Positions 35,606 through 40,025 of a stretch of DNA of 64,000 nt are shown here, piece after piece. How positions within the stretch are numbered: position 1 is the first letter of the stretch; each line of letters starts with the position of its first letter. The notes under the pieces were generated by a model that saw only the letters and a list, made by a program, of their open reading frames with translations, did no database searches and was not told where the DNA came from. Source of the DNA: Kangiella aquimarina DSM 16071 (GTDB lineage Bacteria > Pseudomonadota > Gammaproteobacteria > Enterobacterales > Kangiellaceae); the NCBI RefSeq assembly GCF_000374105.1, contig NZ_KB893650.1:676862-740861 (forward strand), written 5' to 3'. Position numbers and translations under genes: made by a program.

Positions 35606-36067
35606 TTACAGAAAGCCTTCAAACTGCTCCTGTCGCAATACTTCGTAAGTTACTATAGCTACCGTATTAGAAAGGTTCAGACTGCGGCTGTCAGGGCGCA
35701 TAGGGATTCTTAGCAGGTGTTCTCCCATATCCTCAAGGATATGATCGGGTAGTCCTCTGGTTTCTGGACCAAACATTAAGTAATCACCATCCTGAAACTC
35801 AACTTGATGAAAATAGTTTTTTGCTTTGGTGCTAAGCCCAAATAGCCGTTCCGGTTGTTCATTGTCTAGAAATGCCTGGTAGTTGTCATGAATTTTGACC
35901 TGTGCCCATTCATGGTAATCTAACCCTGCTCGACGCATTCGCTTGTCATCTATTTCAAACCCAAGTGGTTTGATTAAGTGAAGCTGAAAACCGGTATTGG
36001 CGCATAAGCGGATAATATTGCCGGTATTTGGTGGAATTTCAGGTTCAAATAAAACGATATGGTACAT
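35606..36067 (-). CDS. trmL: tRNA (cytidine(34)-2'-O)-methyltransferase TrmL
   Basis: A 153-residue SPOUT methyltransferase: [19 protein letters not shown] near the start and the knot motif [10 protein letters not shown] with [22 protein letters not shown]. It methylates the wobble ribose of tRNA-Leu. Its ATG follows the ntrC stop without any spacer, so it is probably expressed with ntrBC, an unusual link between nitrogen control and tRNA modification. Confidence 0.93.
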
Positions 36068-36676
36068 TTACTCGTCGTCCTGCTGTTGCCAGTTTTGTAG
36101 TTTACGGGTCAGTGTGTTGCGCCCCCAGCCAAGGAGCTTTGCGGCTTTTTGTTTGTGTCCCTGAGTTAGCCGCAAGGCATTGTCTACGATAAAGCGCTCA
36201 AAATCATCCTGAATTTGTTGCAGTATATCTGTCTGCCCCTGATGGTAGTGCTGTTCTATGGCCTTGTGGATCTGCTGCTGCCAGGCAGGCAGATGCGTAT
36301 TGGGGAGTTGGCTATCGAGAGCCTTGCGACAGATGTCGATGACCTGATTAATGTTGAATGGTTTAGGTAAATAATCGAAAGCACCCAGTTCGTGGGTTTG
36401 GCTTCCAATATCCGTATCAGCATAGGCAGTGATCATAATTACCGGCAGATTTGGGTTTGATTGATTAAGTTTTTCGAGTAACTCAAGACCACTCATTCCC
36501 GCCATTTGAATGTCAGTGATTACAATATTGGGACTGTGAGTTCTGACTAGCTCCAAACCTTCAGCGCCGTTATCGCAGGAGATGACTTTAAACTCTGCGT
36601 TGTTTAGCGCGCGTGCTAGCACCCAGCGAATTGAACTATCATCATCTACCACCAGAATAGTTGGCTGCTCGGTCAT
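36068..36676 (-). CDS. NtrC-family response regulator lacking the AAA+ sigma54-activation domain
   Basis: A 202-residue regulator. Receiver: Asp11-Asp13, phospho-acceptor Asp55, Thr83, Lys105 and GAFDYLPKPF, all as in NtrC. C-terminus: RLTQGHKQKAAKLLGWGRNTLTRKL (~169-193, given in part), essentially the Fis-type HTH of enteric NtrC. Between them are only ~40 residues of linker, where NtrC (~470 residues) has its AAA+ domain; GESGTGKE, GAFTGA and Walker B are all missing. The reading frame is unbroken. It overlaps ntrB by 4 nt, and trmL follows with no gap. It probably binds NtrC boxes but cannot open sigma54 promoters. The label ntrC is by descent; function is inferred. Confidence 0.9.
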   Translation of the reverse strand: MTEQPTILVVDDDSSIRWVLARALNNAEFKVISCDNGAEGLELVRTHSPNIVITDIQMAGMSGLELLEKLNQSNPNLPVIMITAYADTDIGSQTHELGAFDYLPKPFNINQVIDICRKALDSQLPNTHLPAWQQQIHKAIEQHYHQGQTDILQQIQDDFERFIVDNALRLTQGHKQKAAKLLGWGRNTLTRKLQNWQQQDDE

Positions 36677-37734
36677 TGCTGTTCAACCTCGCTATCATGA
36701 TTGACTACGGGCAGGTAAATAGAAAAAGTTGTACCTGTAGCGTCGCTAATAAATTCTATAATGCCGCTTTGCTGCTGAATCAGACTTTGAGCAATTCCCA
36801 GTCCCAATCCACTACTCTGTTTCCCACTGATGAGGGGCACAAAGACATTGGGTTGTAGTGCAGGGTCAATTCCTGGACCATCATCTATGACATCAATTCG
36901 AAGGGTAAGCGGGTATTGTTTTATGCCAATACTGTGACGAGGTAACGCGCGGGTTTTTATAACAATGTTCGCCTGTTTTTGAACCGCACACGCTTCAATA
37001 GCATTCTGGACTACATTCAACAGTGCCTGATAAACAGACTCTGGCGCGATCGTAAGTTCTGGCAGACTGGGATCATAATCTTTTTTTAGTTGAATATTTT
37101 CCGGTAGATTAATGCTGCAGAAGTCGTAAACCTGTTCAGTGACTTCATGAATATTAGTTAGTACTTTGCTGGCTTTTTTGCCACCCAGTAACATTCGATC
37201 TACCAGTTTGGAAAGCCGCTCAATTTCGTGCTGAATAATATCGGTAAATTCTTTCTGTTCTTCTGGAAGCTCAAGCGCCAGAAGTTGAGCAGCACCGGCG
37301 ATACCGCTGAGAGGATTTTTGACTTCATGGGCTAGTTGGGCCAACAATTTATTATTGATTTGGTTTTGTTGCAGTATCCCAAGCTCATGTTGATAGCGCT
37401 TTATGCTCTGTCTGTCCTGCCACTCGACCATCAGGTAAGGCTTATCAAGATGGATCCAGTGACCGGTAAAGTTGGCAATAATGTTGCGGCCATTGAGCAA
37501 CTCCAGCCTTAAATCATCCTGAGCAAAACTGCCATTGTCCTTAAGTGTTTTTAATAGTTCGCGGAGAGGGAGGCTATCGCTGGCGATAAAAAAACTATAG
37601 CGTTGCCCGAGCAGAACCTTGGAGGTGGTCCGTAATGCGCTTTCTGCGGTTTGGTTCAAATAGGCAAAGCGACCATGAGTATCAAACAGCATGACTGCGG
37701 TAGAGAGCTGGTCGAGCAGTGCTTTGGTATTCAT
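36673..37734 (-). CDS. glnL: Nitrogen-control sensor histidine kinase NtrB (GlnL)
   Basis: A 353-residue soluble kinase: PAS domain (~5-110), H box with His136 in LAHEVKNPLSGIAGAAQLL, and ATPase motifs (NVVQNAIEA, DDGPGIDP, SSGLGLGIAQSL). In enteric bacteria NtrB phosphorylates NtrC when glutamine is low and dephosphorylates it with PII. All catalytic elements look intact, so phosphotransfer to the short NtrC is expected. The upstream region has a sigma70 -10 box and an NtrC-type palindrome. Confidence 0.93.
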   Translation of the reverse strand: MNTKALLDQLSTAVMLFDTHGRFAYLNQTAESALRTTSKVLLGQRYSFFIASDSLPLRELLKTLKDNGSFAQDDLRLELLNGRNIIANFTGHWIHLDKPYLMVEWQDRQSIKRYQHELGILQQNQINNKLLAQLAHEVKNPLSGIAGAAQLLALELPEEQKEFTDIIQHEIERLSKLVDRMLLGGKKASKVLTNIHEVTEQVYDFCSINLPENIQLKKDYDPSLPELTIAPESVYQALLNVVQNAIEACAVQKQANIVIKTRALPRHSIGIKQYPLTLRIDVIDDGPGIDPALQPNVFVPLISGKQSSGLGLGIAQSLIQQQSGIIEFISDATGTTFSIYLPVVNHDSEVEQQ

Positions 37735-37759: not shown

Positions 37760-37788
37760 ATTATAACAGCTTAAAATGAATAACGCAC
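37760..37788 (-). promoter_or_regulatory. Candidate sigma70 promoter of ntrB-ntrC-trmL
   Basis: On the minus strand a perfect TATAAT (37765-37760) lies 25 nt before the ntrB ATG. The -35 position coincides with the right half of the NtrC palindrome and has no good TTGACA match. Confidence 0.6.
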
Positions 37789-37799
37789 CAAAACGGTGC
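37785..37799. promoter_or_regulatory. NtrC-type operator overlapping the ntrB promoter
   Basis: GCACCAAAACGGTGC is a near-perfect GCACC-N5-GGTGC palindrome. Relative to the start predicted from the TATAAT it is centred near -39, over the -35 region, a position typical of repression. In E. coli NtrC represses glnL in the same manner. Confidence 0.75.
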
Positions 37800-37826: not shown

Positions 37827-38378
37827 CTATCGGTTCAGGACTGAAGCCCGTAAGACATGAAAGGTCACTGCCTTGCTGGTCTGGACAATTTCCTGTGTTT
37901 CGTCATTGATAACCATAGCTACCAGCTCGTGAGTACCGCGTGCCACATTGACTAAATTAAAGTAGGGAATTTTCTGATCCTGGCCTACCTGAACGCCATC
38001 CATATGTAATCGAATACTGTGGTTGGGTTGAATCTGCGGTGTAATACCTATCACGATATTGACCGAACCATCGTTTGCCCTGACGCCTTGATCATTGGTC
38101 GGGCTGTCAATTGAAAATACTTCATACATTGGCCCTTGCTCTTCATCATCGTTTTGACTCTGCTGTTGCTTGCTGGGGCTGATGCGAGGTGTAGAAACAA
38201 CATTCTGATTGGTTTTAACAGTAATCGCTTCGGCACCTTCTATGGGCTTATCGGTATAGGTTACTTTGCCATCTTTATCCACCTTTTTGTACAACACGGT
38301 GGCATCAGCACCAGTGAACCATAGTGCCGTGACAAAAAGGAGTGACAGTTTAAAAAGATATGAAACTTTAACTTGCAT
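37827..38378 (-). CDS. DUF4124-containing exported protein
   Basis: The ~183-residue protein has a signal peptide (ending near FTGADA) and a DUF4124 motif (VLYKKVDKDGKVTYTDKPIEGAEAI), then a Gln-rich linker and a C-terminal beta-sandwich-like region (GVRANDGSVNIVIGITPQIQPNHSIRLHMDG). An AGGG site 8 nt upstream favours ATG 38378 over the GTG at 38387. DUF4124 genes between glnA and ntrB are common in gammaproteobacteria; their role is unknown. Confidence 0.82.
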   Translation of the reverse strand: MQVKVSYLFKLSLLFVTALWFTGADATVLYKKVDKDGKVTYTDKPIEGAEAITVKTNQNVVSTPRISPSKQQQSQNDDEEQGPMYEVFSIDSPTNDQGVRANDGSVNIVIGITPQIQPNHSIRLHMDGVQVGQDQKIPYFNLVNVARGTHELVAMVINDETQEIVQTSKAVTFHVLRASVLNR

Positions 38379-38450
38379 TAAAATCACCCTGTAATGAACT
38401 TACCTGATTAGACAAAGTATTAGGCAGCTTGTGCCATCTGTCAAAAATAA

Positions 38451-38500: not shown

Positions 38501-39910
38501 TTACAAGCTGTAGTACATGTCGAACTCAACTGGGTGAGTTGTCATGTTTAGACGCTCAATATCAGCACGCTTGAGTTCAATGTAAGCATCAAGCATGTCA
38601 TCAGAGAAAACACCGCCACGAGTTAGGAATTCACGGTCAGCATTTAGTGCATCTAAAGCCTGCTCTAAAGACTTGGCAACAGTTGGAATTGCTTTTGCTT
38701 CTTCCGCTGGCAAATCATACAAATCTTTATCCATTGCATCGCCAGGATGGATTTTGTTTTGGATTCCGTCAAGACCAGCCATCATCAATGCAGCAAATGC
38801 CAAGTATGGATTCGCCATTGGGTCTGGGAAACGCACTTCGATACGACGAGCTTTTGCGCTACTGACATGCGGAATACGAATTGAAGCAGAACGGTTTTTA
38901 GCGGAGTATGCAAGCATTACTGGAGCTTCAAAACCAGGCACTAGACGTTTATATGAATTTGTTGACGGGTTAGTCAAAGCATTCAATGCGCGTGCATGTT
39001 TGATGATGCCGCCGATGTAATACAAGGCTTCTGCAGAAAGACCTGCATATTTATCACCAGCGAAAAGATTTTTACCATCTTTTGCAAGAGACATGTGAAC
39101 ATGCATACCAGTACCATTATCGCCAACGATTGGTTTTGGCATGAATGTCGCGGTTTTGCCATAAGCATGAGCGACGTTATGAATAACATATTTTAAGATT
39201 TGAACTTCATCCGCTTTCTTCATAAGCGTGTTAAATTCAGTGGCAATCTCATTCTGACCACCGGTTGCAACTTCGTGGTGGTGAGCTTCAATACGCAAAC
39301 CCATCTGCTCCATAACAAGACACATTTGTGAGCGAATATCTTGTGATGAATCAACAGGAGGAACTGGGAAGTAACCGCCTTTTACGCGAGGACGGTGAGC
39401 ATAGTTACCGCCTTCGTATGATTTGTCAGAATTCCATGCTGCTTCAGGGTCATCGATCTTTACGAATGAACCGCTCATGTCGGTTTTAAAACGCACGTCT
39501 TCAAACATGAAAAACTCTGGTTCAGGACCAAAGAATGCTGTATCTGCTACGCCTGTAGACTTTAAATATTCTTCAGCACGACGAGCTACCGAACGAGGGT
39601 CTCTATCATAACCAGTCATCGTTGATGGCTCTAAAATATCGCAACGCAAGTTAAGAGTTGCATCTTCGAAGAAAGGATCCATAACAGCAGACTCTGCATC
39701 TGGCATAAGGACCATGTCTGATTCATTAATGCCTTTCCAACCAGCGATTGAAGAACCGTCAAACATCTTACCCTCTGTTAACATTTCTTCGTCAACAAGG
39801 CGCGCAGGAATGGTAACGTGTTGCTCTTTACCTTTAGTATCGGTAAAGCGAAGGTCAACAAATTTAACATCCATTTCTTCAATCATTTTAAGAACGTTTT
39901 CAACTGACAT
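38501..39910 (-). CDS. glnA: Glutamine synthetase type I (GlnA)
   Basis: A 469-residue [21 protein letters not shown] (N-terminal beta-grasp), FFGPEPEFF and [13 protein letters not shown] (metal and glutamate sites), [17 protein letters not shown], and the adenylylation Tyr398 in DLYDLPAEE, which shows control by an adenylyltransferase. It combines ammonia and glutamate using ATP. A GGAG site lies 8 nt before the ATG. The promoter region has a perfect TATAAT and an NtrC palindrome but no visible sigma54 promoter. Confidence 0.98.
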
Positions 39911-39951: not shown

Positions 39952-39957
39952 ATTATA
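39952..39957 (-). promoter_or_regulatory. Candidate sigma70 -10 box of glnA
   Basis: A perfect TATAAT on the minus strand, placing the start near 39945. The -35 region is weak (TAGTCT, three matches of six), as expected for an activator-dependent promoter. Confidence 0.6.
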
Positions 39958-40010: not shown

Positions 40011-40025
40011 GCACCAAAATGGTGC
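40011..40025. promoter_or_regulatory. NtrC-type operator upstream of glnA
   Basis: GCACCAAAATGGTGC is a perfect palindrome (GCACCA-N3-TGGTGC) of the NtrC class. Its centre, 40018, is about 73 bp upstream of the predicted glnA start, near the -72 register used by class I activators of sigma70 RNA polymerase. It lies in the region shared with the TonB receptor gene. Confidence 0.8.

Follow-up and report, generated by a model that had tools for sequence, protein, structure and literature searches.

Genus-wide and apparently convergent conversion of NtrC to a sigma54-independent regulator in Kangiella

Introduction

NtrC serves as the textbook example of a sigma54 activator, with a mechanism considered to centre on its ATPase. 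Even the atypical NtrCs that act with sigma70 need theirs (PMC10274813). Rhodobacter capsulatus NtrC acts with sigma70, and ATP binding is essential, according to the same paper (PMC10274813). The NtrC of Caulobacter lacks GAFTGA and acts on sigma70 promoters, including that of glutamine synthetase; growth on ammonium depends on all three of its domains and is not supported once the AAA+ domain is removed (PMC10274813; PMC12421884). The former sigma54 activators TyrR, DhaR, VpsR and HupR have lost the link to sigma54, as described in Francke 2011 (PMC3162934). A search of the open-access literature, which leaves subscription journals mostly uncovered, found no description of a natural NtrC without an AAA+ domain. 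Among other response regulators, the redox regulators PrrA, ActR and RegA (REC-Fis) have a receiver-Fis domain order and work without AAA+.

We analyzed 64,000 nucleotides of the Kangiella aquimarina DSM 16071 genome (contig NZ_KB893650.1; hereafter the window), in which ntrC encodes only a receiver and a DNA-binding domain. This short NtrC shares with enteric-type NtrC (NR(I)) an orthologous receiver and DNA-binding domain, the glnA-ntrB-ntrC operon, the DNA site and the partner kinase, but it has no AAA+ domain and no sigma54 promoter at glnA, and its site lies near a sigma70-type promoter. Like the R. capsulatus and Caulobacter proteins it may act at sigma70 promoters, which in Kangiella is inferred only from predicted -10 elements at fixed spacing, without transcription data. 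Those two proteins keep an AAA+ domain that they need and have lost only loop 1 (GAFTGA), whereas in Kangiella the whole domain is gone. The loss of the sigma54 link recalls TyrR, DhaR, VpsR and HupR, but these keep the AAA+ fold that Kangiella NtrC lacks.

In Kangiella, nature has removed the ATPase and kept sensing, DNA recognition and targets. Such a minimal NtrC offers a means of testing what a receiver and a DNA-binding domain can do alone. The species compared here form a series along the path from sigma54 to sigma70, with NtrC full, decayed or deleted and rpoN kept or lost, and offer a direct handle on how a lineage loses an alternative sigma factor. NtrC has apparently been converted across the genus, and convergently elsewhere, to a sigma54-independent regulator; the activation step at glnA remains unproven.

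Results and Discussion

Domain structure and identity of the short NtrC

The reading frame of the short ntrC is exactly 36068-36676 on the minus strand, with an ATG start and 202 amino acids. The gene is placed in glnA-ntrB-ntrC, adjoining that of its partner kinase. Features of the operon, in window positions, are:

36068-36676, minus strand: short ntrC, receiver (residues 7-114) and NtrC DNA-binding domain (about 127-202) without an AAA+ module
36673-37734, minus strand: ntrB, nitrogen regulation protein NR(II) (NF008293, 264.4 bits, cut-off 240), 4-base overlap with ntrC
37760-37765, minus strand: predicted sigma70 -10 TATAAT of ntrB, 27 bp from the site centre, -35 position covered by the site
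37785-37799, no strand: perfect NtrC site GCACC-N5-GGTGC upstream of ntrB (pattern match)
37827-38387, minus strand: DUF4124 protein gene between glnA and ntrB (PF13511, E 4.4e-06)
38501-39910, minus strand: glnA, glutamine synthetase (NF007006, 953.4 bits, cut-off 845)
39952-39957, minus strand: predicted sigma70 -10 TATAAT of glnA, 61 bp from the site centre and 47 bp from the ATG
40011-40025, no strand: perfect NtrC site upstream of glnA (GCACC-N5-GGTGC), centred at about -73 relative to the predicted start

Pfam placed Response_reg at residues 7-114 (E 1.1e-30), overlapped by a weaker FleQ-domain match, and the Fis-type helix-turn-helix HTH_8 at 157-195 (E 2.6e-12); neither Sigma54_activat nor any AAA+ domain was matched in the protein. 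It does not meet the criterion for a sigma54 enhancer-binding protein, an AAA+ domain with Walker A/B and GAFTGA. The best NCBIfam models were two for NtrC (NR(I)), TIGR01818 at 183 bits and another at 182.6 bits, each matching in two separate stretches; the middle is absent, and the TIGR01818 cut-off of 558.6 bits is not reached. AtoC followed at 102.7 bits. Among PDB sequences, the receiver matched that of NtrC (1dc7, E 3.5e-30) and residues 127-195 matched the NtrC DNA-binding domain (1ntc, E 1.7e-12). Alignment with 16 full-length NtrCs showed that one 252-column block is missing, along with a further short gap in the linker, and that the C-terminal DNA-binding domain is retained from the conserved Trp132 onward. 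The receiver residues D55, T83 and K105 (phospho-Asp, Thr/Ser and Lys) are invariant in all 19 Kangiella orthologs. A structure model built from these orthologs (mean pLDDT 84.3, pTM 0.59) has a five-strand receiver followed by helices 131-144, 150-170, 175-182 and 186-201, and the best 50 Foldseek matches listed for it were response regulators and receiver domains only.

A preliminary description of this locus had claimed an intact NtrC receiver (Asp55, Thr83, Lys105) and an intact NtrC-type Fis helix-turn-helix with the AAA+ module missing between them. The invariant residues, the HTH_8 and 1ntc matches, and the lost block together with the lack of a Sigma54_activat match agree with each part of this claim. 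Judged from these comparisons, the short NtrC is the true NtrC of the Kangiella lineage by descent, with its AAA+ sigma54-activation module (about 250 residues) deleted.

In full-length NtrC, the signal reaches AAA+ through the helix 4 region of the receiver. At 14 alignment columns the Kangiella majority departs from a residue that 80% or more of 44 full-length NtrCs share, and half of these columns (7 of 14) lie within residues 81-95, in the helix 4 region. We regard these changes as suggestive only, because the short NtrCs of a second family, described below, still have, at four of the seven, the residue most common in the full-length proteins.

Distribution and selection

Within a set of 61 genomes, the short NtrC was present in 19 of 20 Kangiella genomes, and the twentieth is only 55% complete, so the short form is not an assembly fault. 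No full-length NtrC scored over the NtrC cut-off in any of the 20, the window's genome and the 55% complete one included; a single 464-amino-acid match at E<=1e-120, in G007, falls under that cut-off. In the rest of the family, 16 of 17 genomes had a full NtrC over the cut-off (the one without is 73% complete), as had 19 of 23 genomes from other families of the order. Among nine pairs of short ntrC genes, dN/dS was 0.016, 0.028, 0.048 and 0.052 in four, and the other five were saturated at synonymous sites. By these estimates, from the four unsaturated pairs, the gene is under strong purifying selection.

The preliminary description had read the architecture as a stable, selected deletion rather than decay, and the open frame in 19 genomes and the low dN/dS in four of nine pairs fit that reading. 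Recurrence of the same architecture in related genomes, which it had proposed to look for, is found in 19 Kangiella assemblies. The two findings that would have overturned it did not materialize: the 19 assemblies rule out a gap or deletion in the assembly at the locus, and no full-length NtrC over the cut-off was found elsewhere in the window's genome.

Promoters of glnA and ntrB

An NtrC site lies at glnA in all 19 Kangiella genomes with the region at hand (G009 and G018 with one mismatch), and a perfect site lies at ntrB in 19 of 19. The glnA site is centred 92-128 bp upstream of the ATG. A perfect TATAAT starts 60-62 bp downstream of this centre in 18 of 19 genomes, which happened in 0.3% of shuffles of the downstream DNA. 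The spacer between site and TATAAT has a median identity of only 42%. The exception, G015, has perfect TATAATs at 32 and 50 bp from the centre, the second of which is closer by one helical turn than 61 bp. The -35 is poor, with 3-5 mismatches in the 18 genomes scored (G007 was not scored). A -24/-12 sigma54 element is absent at glnA in 19 of 19 genomes, bar two weak GG-N10-GC matches (5 and 7 of 11), both of which overlap TATAAT and are chance matches. Eight relatives with full-length NtrC had glnA in the fetched stretch (seven of the family, one of another family), and all eight have a -24/-12 element at glnA that matches 9-10 of 11 consensus positions; four of them also have a perfect or near-perfect NtrC site 195-209 bp before the glnA ATG.

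At ntrB, 18 of 19 Kangiella genomes (all but G007) have a -10 with at most one mismatch 25-27 bp downstream of the site centre, which puts the site over the -35. To place this -10 we chose the best-matching hexamer among 14 positions, with no shuffled sequences as a control. At least four relatives with full-length NtrC (G030, G033, G023 and G036) share the 25-27 bp distance between the site and a sigma70-type -10. Thus, the ntrB arrangement is ancestral and predates the deletion, and the change is at glnA. All Kangiella promoters and start sites are predictions from sequence, without expression or binding data.

In the window's genome, the arms of the palindrome at ntrB run past the NtrC core. 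We considered the palindrome as a terminator and rejected this, as the extension and the T-run differ by eye in several relatives while the core is constant.

NtrC sites across Kangiella genomes

Four perfect GCACC-N5-GGTGC matches occur in the 2.68 Mb of the window's genome. Two are the sites upstream of glnA and ntrB, and the others fall within coding sequences, presumably of uvrC-like and murA-like genes. The reversed pattern, used as a control, matched once. Summed over 19 Kangiella genomes there are 65 perfect sites, of which 19 are at ntrB, 17 at glnA, 5 upstream of amtB-like genes (in three genomes) and 24 elsewhere. Nine of these 24 were inspected; six are within coding sequence and three (L102, L106 and L108) lie outside the ORFs listed, so an extra target is possible there. 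Those amtB promoters that carry NtrC sites lack a clear -10 at a constant spacing. A PII protein was found in all nine genomes searched.

Two perfect sites 40 bp apart lie upstream of an amtB-like gene adjoining a PII gene at L100:3540-3594 and L101:3458-3512; both genomes are without rpoN.

Sigma54 and its activators in Kangiella

The preliminary description had proposed a check for rpoN. The gene is present in the window's genome, and therefore sigma54 as such is not gone there; it looks uncoupled from NtrC. In contrast to this genome, searches with a DNA-binding-domain model and with whole RpoN proteins found no rpoN in 7 of 19 Kangiella genomes (G001, G005, G006, G008, G009, G014 and G018), all of them at least 99% complete. 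The seven form one clade of the NtrC tree. All keep the short NtrC and both sites (at glnA with the single mismatch in G009 and G018), and because rpoN is gone while protein and sites are kept, the short NtrC cannot need sigma54 in these genomes. The claim that this regulator no longer uses sigma54 is thereby supported most directly, and also by the lack of -24/-12 at glnA.

The activators that remain have changed as well. One, presumably PrsR-like, is without GAFTGA in seven of seven rpoN-less genomes (L273-L279) and keeps it in the 12 rpoN-bearing ones (L001, L262-L271 and L280). A further activator, of the L002 kind, is present in two rpoN-less genomes and has lost GAFTGA in both, with GSLHAG in L290 (G014) and GSLYPN in L291 (G008) in its place. 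As far as motifs can tell, this loss gives independent support for a true loss of sigma54 in the seven genomes.

A second family with short NtrC

Across 369 genomes of the class, the short-NtrC profile matched at E<=1e-45 only in the window's genome and two others; scoring was limited to 8 candidates per genome, and divergent short forms may have escaped detection. The two further matches belong to a gammaproteobacterial family, here f178. Within it, 29 of 41 genomes matched, 18 with a short NtrC (one partial, G441) and 11 with a full-length one; all but one locus of each kind were retrieved (17 short, 10 full). Both loci whose whole sequence was read have, as in Kangiella, glnA and ntrB as neighbors of the short gene. 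The 451-residue NtrC of G448 (L241) has a decayed AAA+ domain in which patterns found no GAFTGA and no Walker B; on its sequence it is an apparent intermediate between the full and short forms.

A quick tree of NtrC (196 columns) nested the f178 shorts inside their own family's NtrCs (SH-aLRT 100 for 27 f178 rows), with G448 adjoining the shorts, and placed the Kangiella shorts in a separate clade (SH-aLRT 99). A clade of the Kangiella shorts with their own family's full-length NtrCs is not shown by the best tree and is not rejected (p 0.484). A single origin of all short NtrCs was rejected by the NtrB tree (p 2e-7), and the best NtrC tree has them in two places; on the NtrC tree alone, the AU test does not reject one short clade (p 0.066). 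The NtrB tree had 29 short-lineage rows and left out 7 Kangiella and 2 full-length f178 NtrBs, which exist yet were missed by the H-box pattern. Neither tree included PrrA/ActR rows. From these placements, the same AAA+ deletion apparently arose independently in f178.

Where glnA was visible, the sigma54 pattern had no match at the f178 glnA promoter in 16 of 16 short genomes and 7 of 7 full or decayed ones, except for two matches some 200 bp upstream. The sequence TTGGCA-N16-TACAAT (with TAAAAT in one genome) occurs in 13 of the 16 short genomes, at a distance of 65-66 or 75-76 bp from the site centre, two spacings about one turn apart. The distal site is near -88, off the usual class I spacing, and in 10 of 16 a second-best site match overlaps the -35, although weakly (4 of 12 mismatches). 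The full or decayed promoters have a like arrangement in G433 and G448 and are unclear in the other five. Thus, on limited evidence, f178 seems to have switched promoters before it lost the domain. All 14 f178 genomes searched have rpoN, with G427 matching only part of the model. In G447 there were two RpoN matches.

Proposed mechanism and alternatives

The target genes have ordinary promoters and perfect sites, and the short NtrC therefore appears to be a simple switch, freed from the need for a special sigma factor. Quite probably, the NtrB-phosphorylated short NtrC dimer activates sigma70 RNA polymerase at glnA and autoregulates ntrBC without ATPase or sigma54; sites, -10s and descent come from sequence, and phosphorylation, binding and activation are inferred. 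Under nitrogen limitation, PII-controlled NtrB would phosphorylate Asp55, and the dimer would bind GCACC-N5-GGTGC. At glnA, from its site near -73, it would activate ordinary sigma70 polymerase by direct contact in a class I-like manner, probably via the alpha C-terminal domain. At ntrB, where the site centre near -39 lies over the -35 element, it would regulate its own operon. Neither an ATPase ring nor sigma54 would take part, and the AAA+ deletion may have become possible once the target promoters had switched from sigma54 to sigma70. Several points count against this explanation: the positions at glnA (-73) and ntrB (-39) differ, the distal f178 site is near -88, amtB has no clear -10, and G007 lacks the ntrB spacing.

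The alternative that retains most weight, although we think it unlikely, is that the short NtrC is a pure repressor that binds the sigma70 promoters of glnA and ntrBC. Full-length enteric NtrC represses glnAp1 and glnLp without its ATPase, and repression needs no AAA+; the ntrB site lies over the -35 position in 18 of 19 Kangiella genomes, with the spacing shared by at least four full-length relatives. At glnA, however, the site is upstream of the core promoter rather than over it, at a near-fixed distance across a variable spacer, and the -35 is poor; repression of glnA by phosphorylated NtrC in nitrogen limitation would also, by inference, oppose the need. Activation rather than repression of glnA is inferred from this site position, the poor -35 and physiology. 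There is only a slim chance that the short NtrC still works with sigma54 by delivering another activator, such as the PrsR-like protein, in trans. The window's genome does retain rpoN and a GAFTGA-bearing activator, but glnA has no -24/-12, and the seven rpoN-less genomes keep the short NtrC, its sites and their spacing.

Still less credible, and strongly disfavoured, is replacement of NtrC beside ntrB by a REC-Fis regulator of the PrrA/ActR/RegA kind. The two-domain order is identical, and the PrrA/ActR model NF033791 matches the receiver, but it does so at 69.7 bits against a cut-off of 250, which marks a separate family, while NtrC scores 183 bits in two stretches. The C-terminal half aligns with NtrC throughout and matches 1ntc, and the NtrC DNA sites are kept. 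For an assembly error or a decaying pseudogene we found no supporting point, and next to no likelihood remains; it is refuted by the open frame in 19 genomes, the dN/dS of 0.016-0.052 in four of nine pairs (the rest saturated) and the same architecture in f178.

Returning to activation by the short NtrC, we regard a broader history as, on balance, probable: a sigma54 enhancer-binding protein was made into a minimal sigma70 activator at least twice independently, by complete excision of the ATPase after the promoter's sigma switch. In Kangiella this would belong to a general dismantling of sigma54 that ended in rpoN loss, and in f178 a decayed-AAA+ intermediate would survive.

A pilus regulator and a downstream gene

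At L003:1060-2388 (window genome C2, near 716452) lies what we take to be a PilR-like response regulator, whose AAA+ region is without Walker A or GAFTGA. One such weak PilR-like match occurs in each of the 19 Kangiella genomes (E 1e-23 to 1e-32). The three of 19 proteins that were read (G000, G009 and G007) are without GAFTGA regardless of whether rpoN is present. These three sequences suggest that pilus control, too, may have left sigma54 in Kangiella.

Directly after the ntrC stop codon begins a gene at 35606-36067, presumably trmL-like, that looks co-transcribed with ntrBC; the same order is found in L041, L047 and L050.
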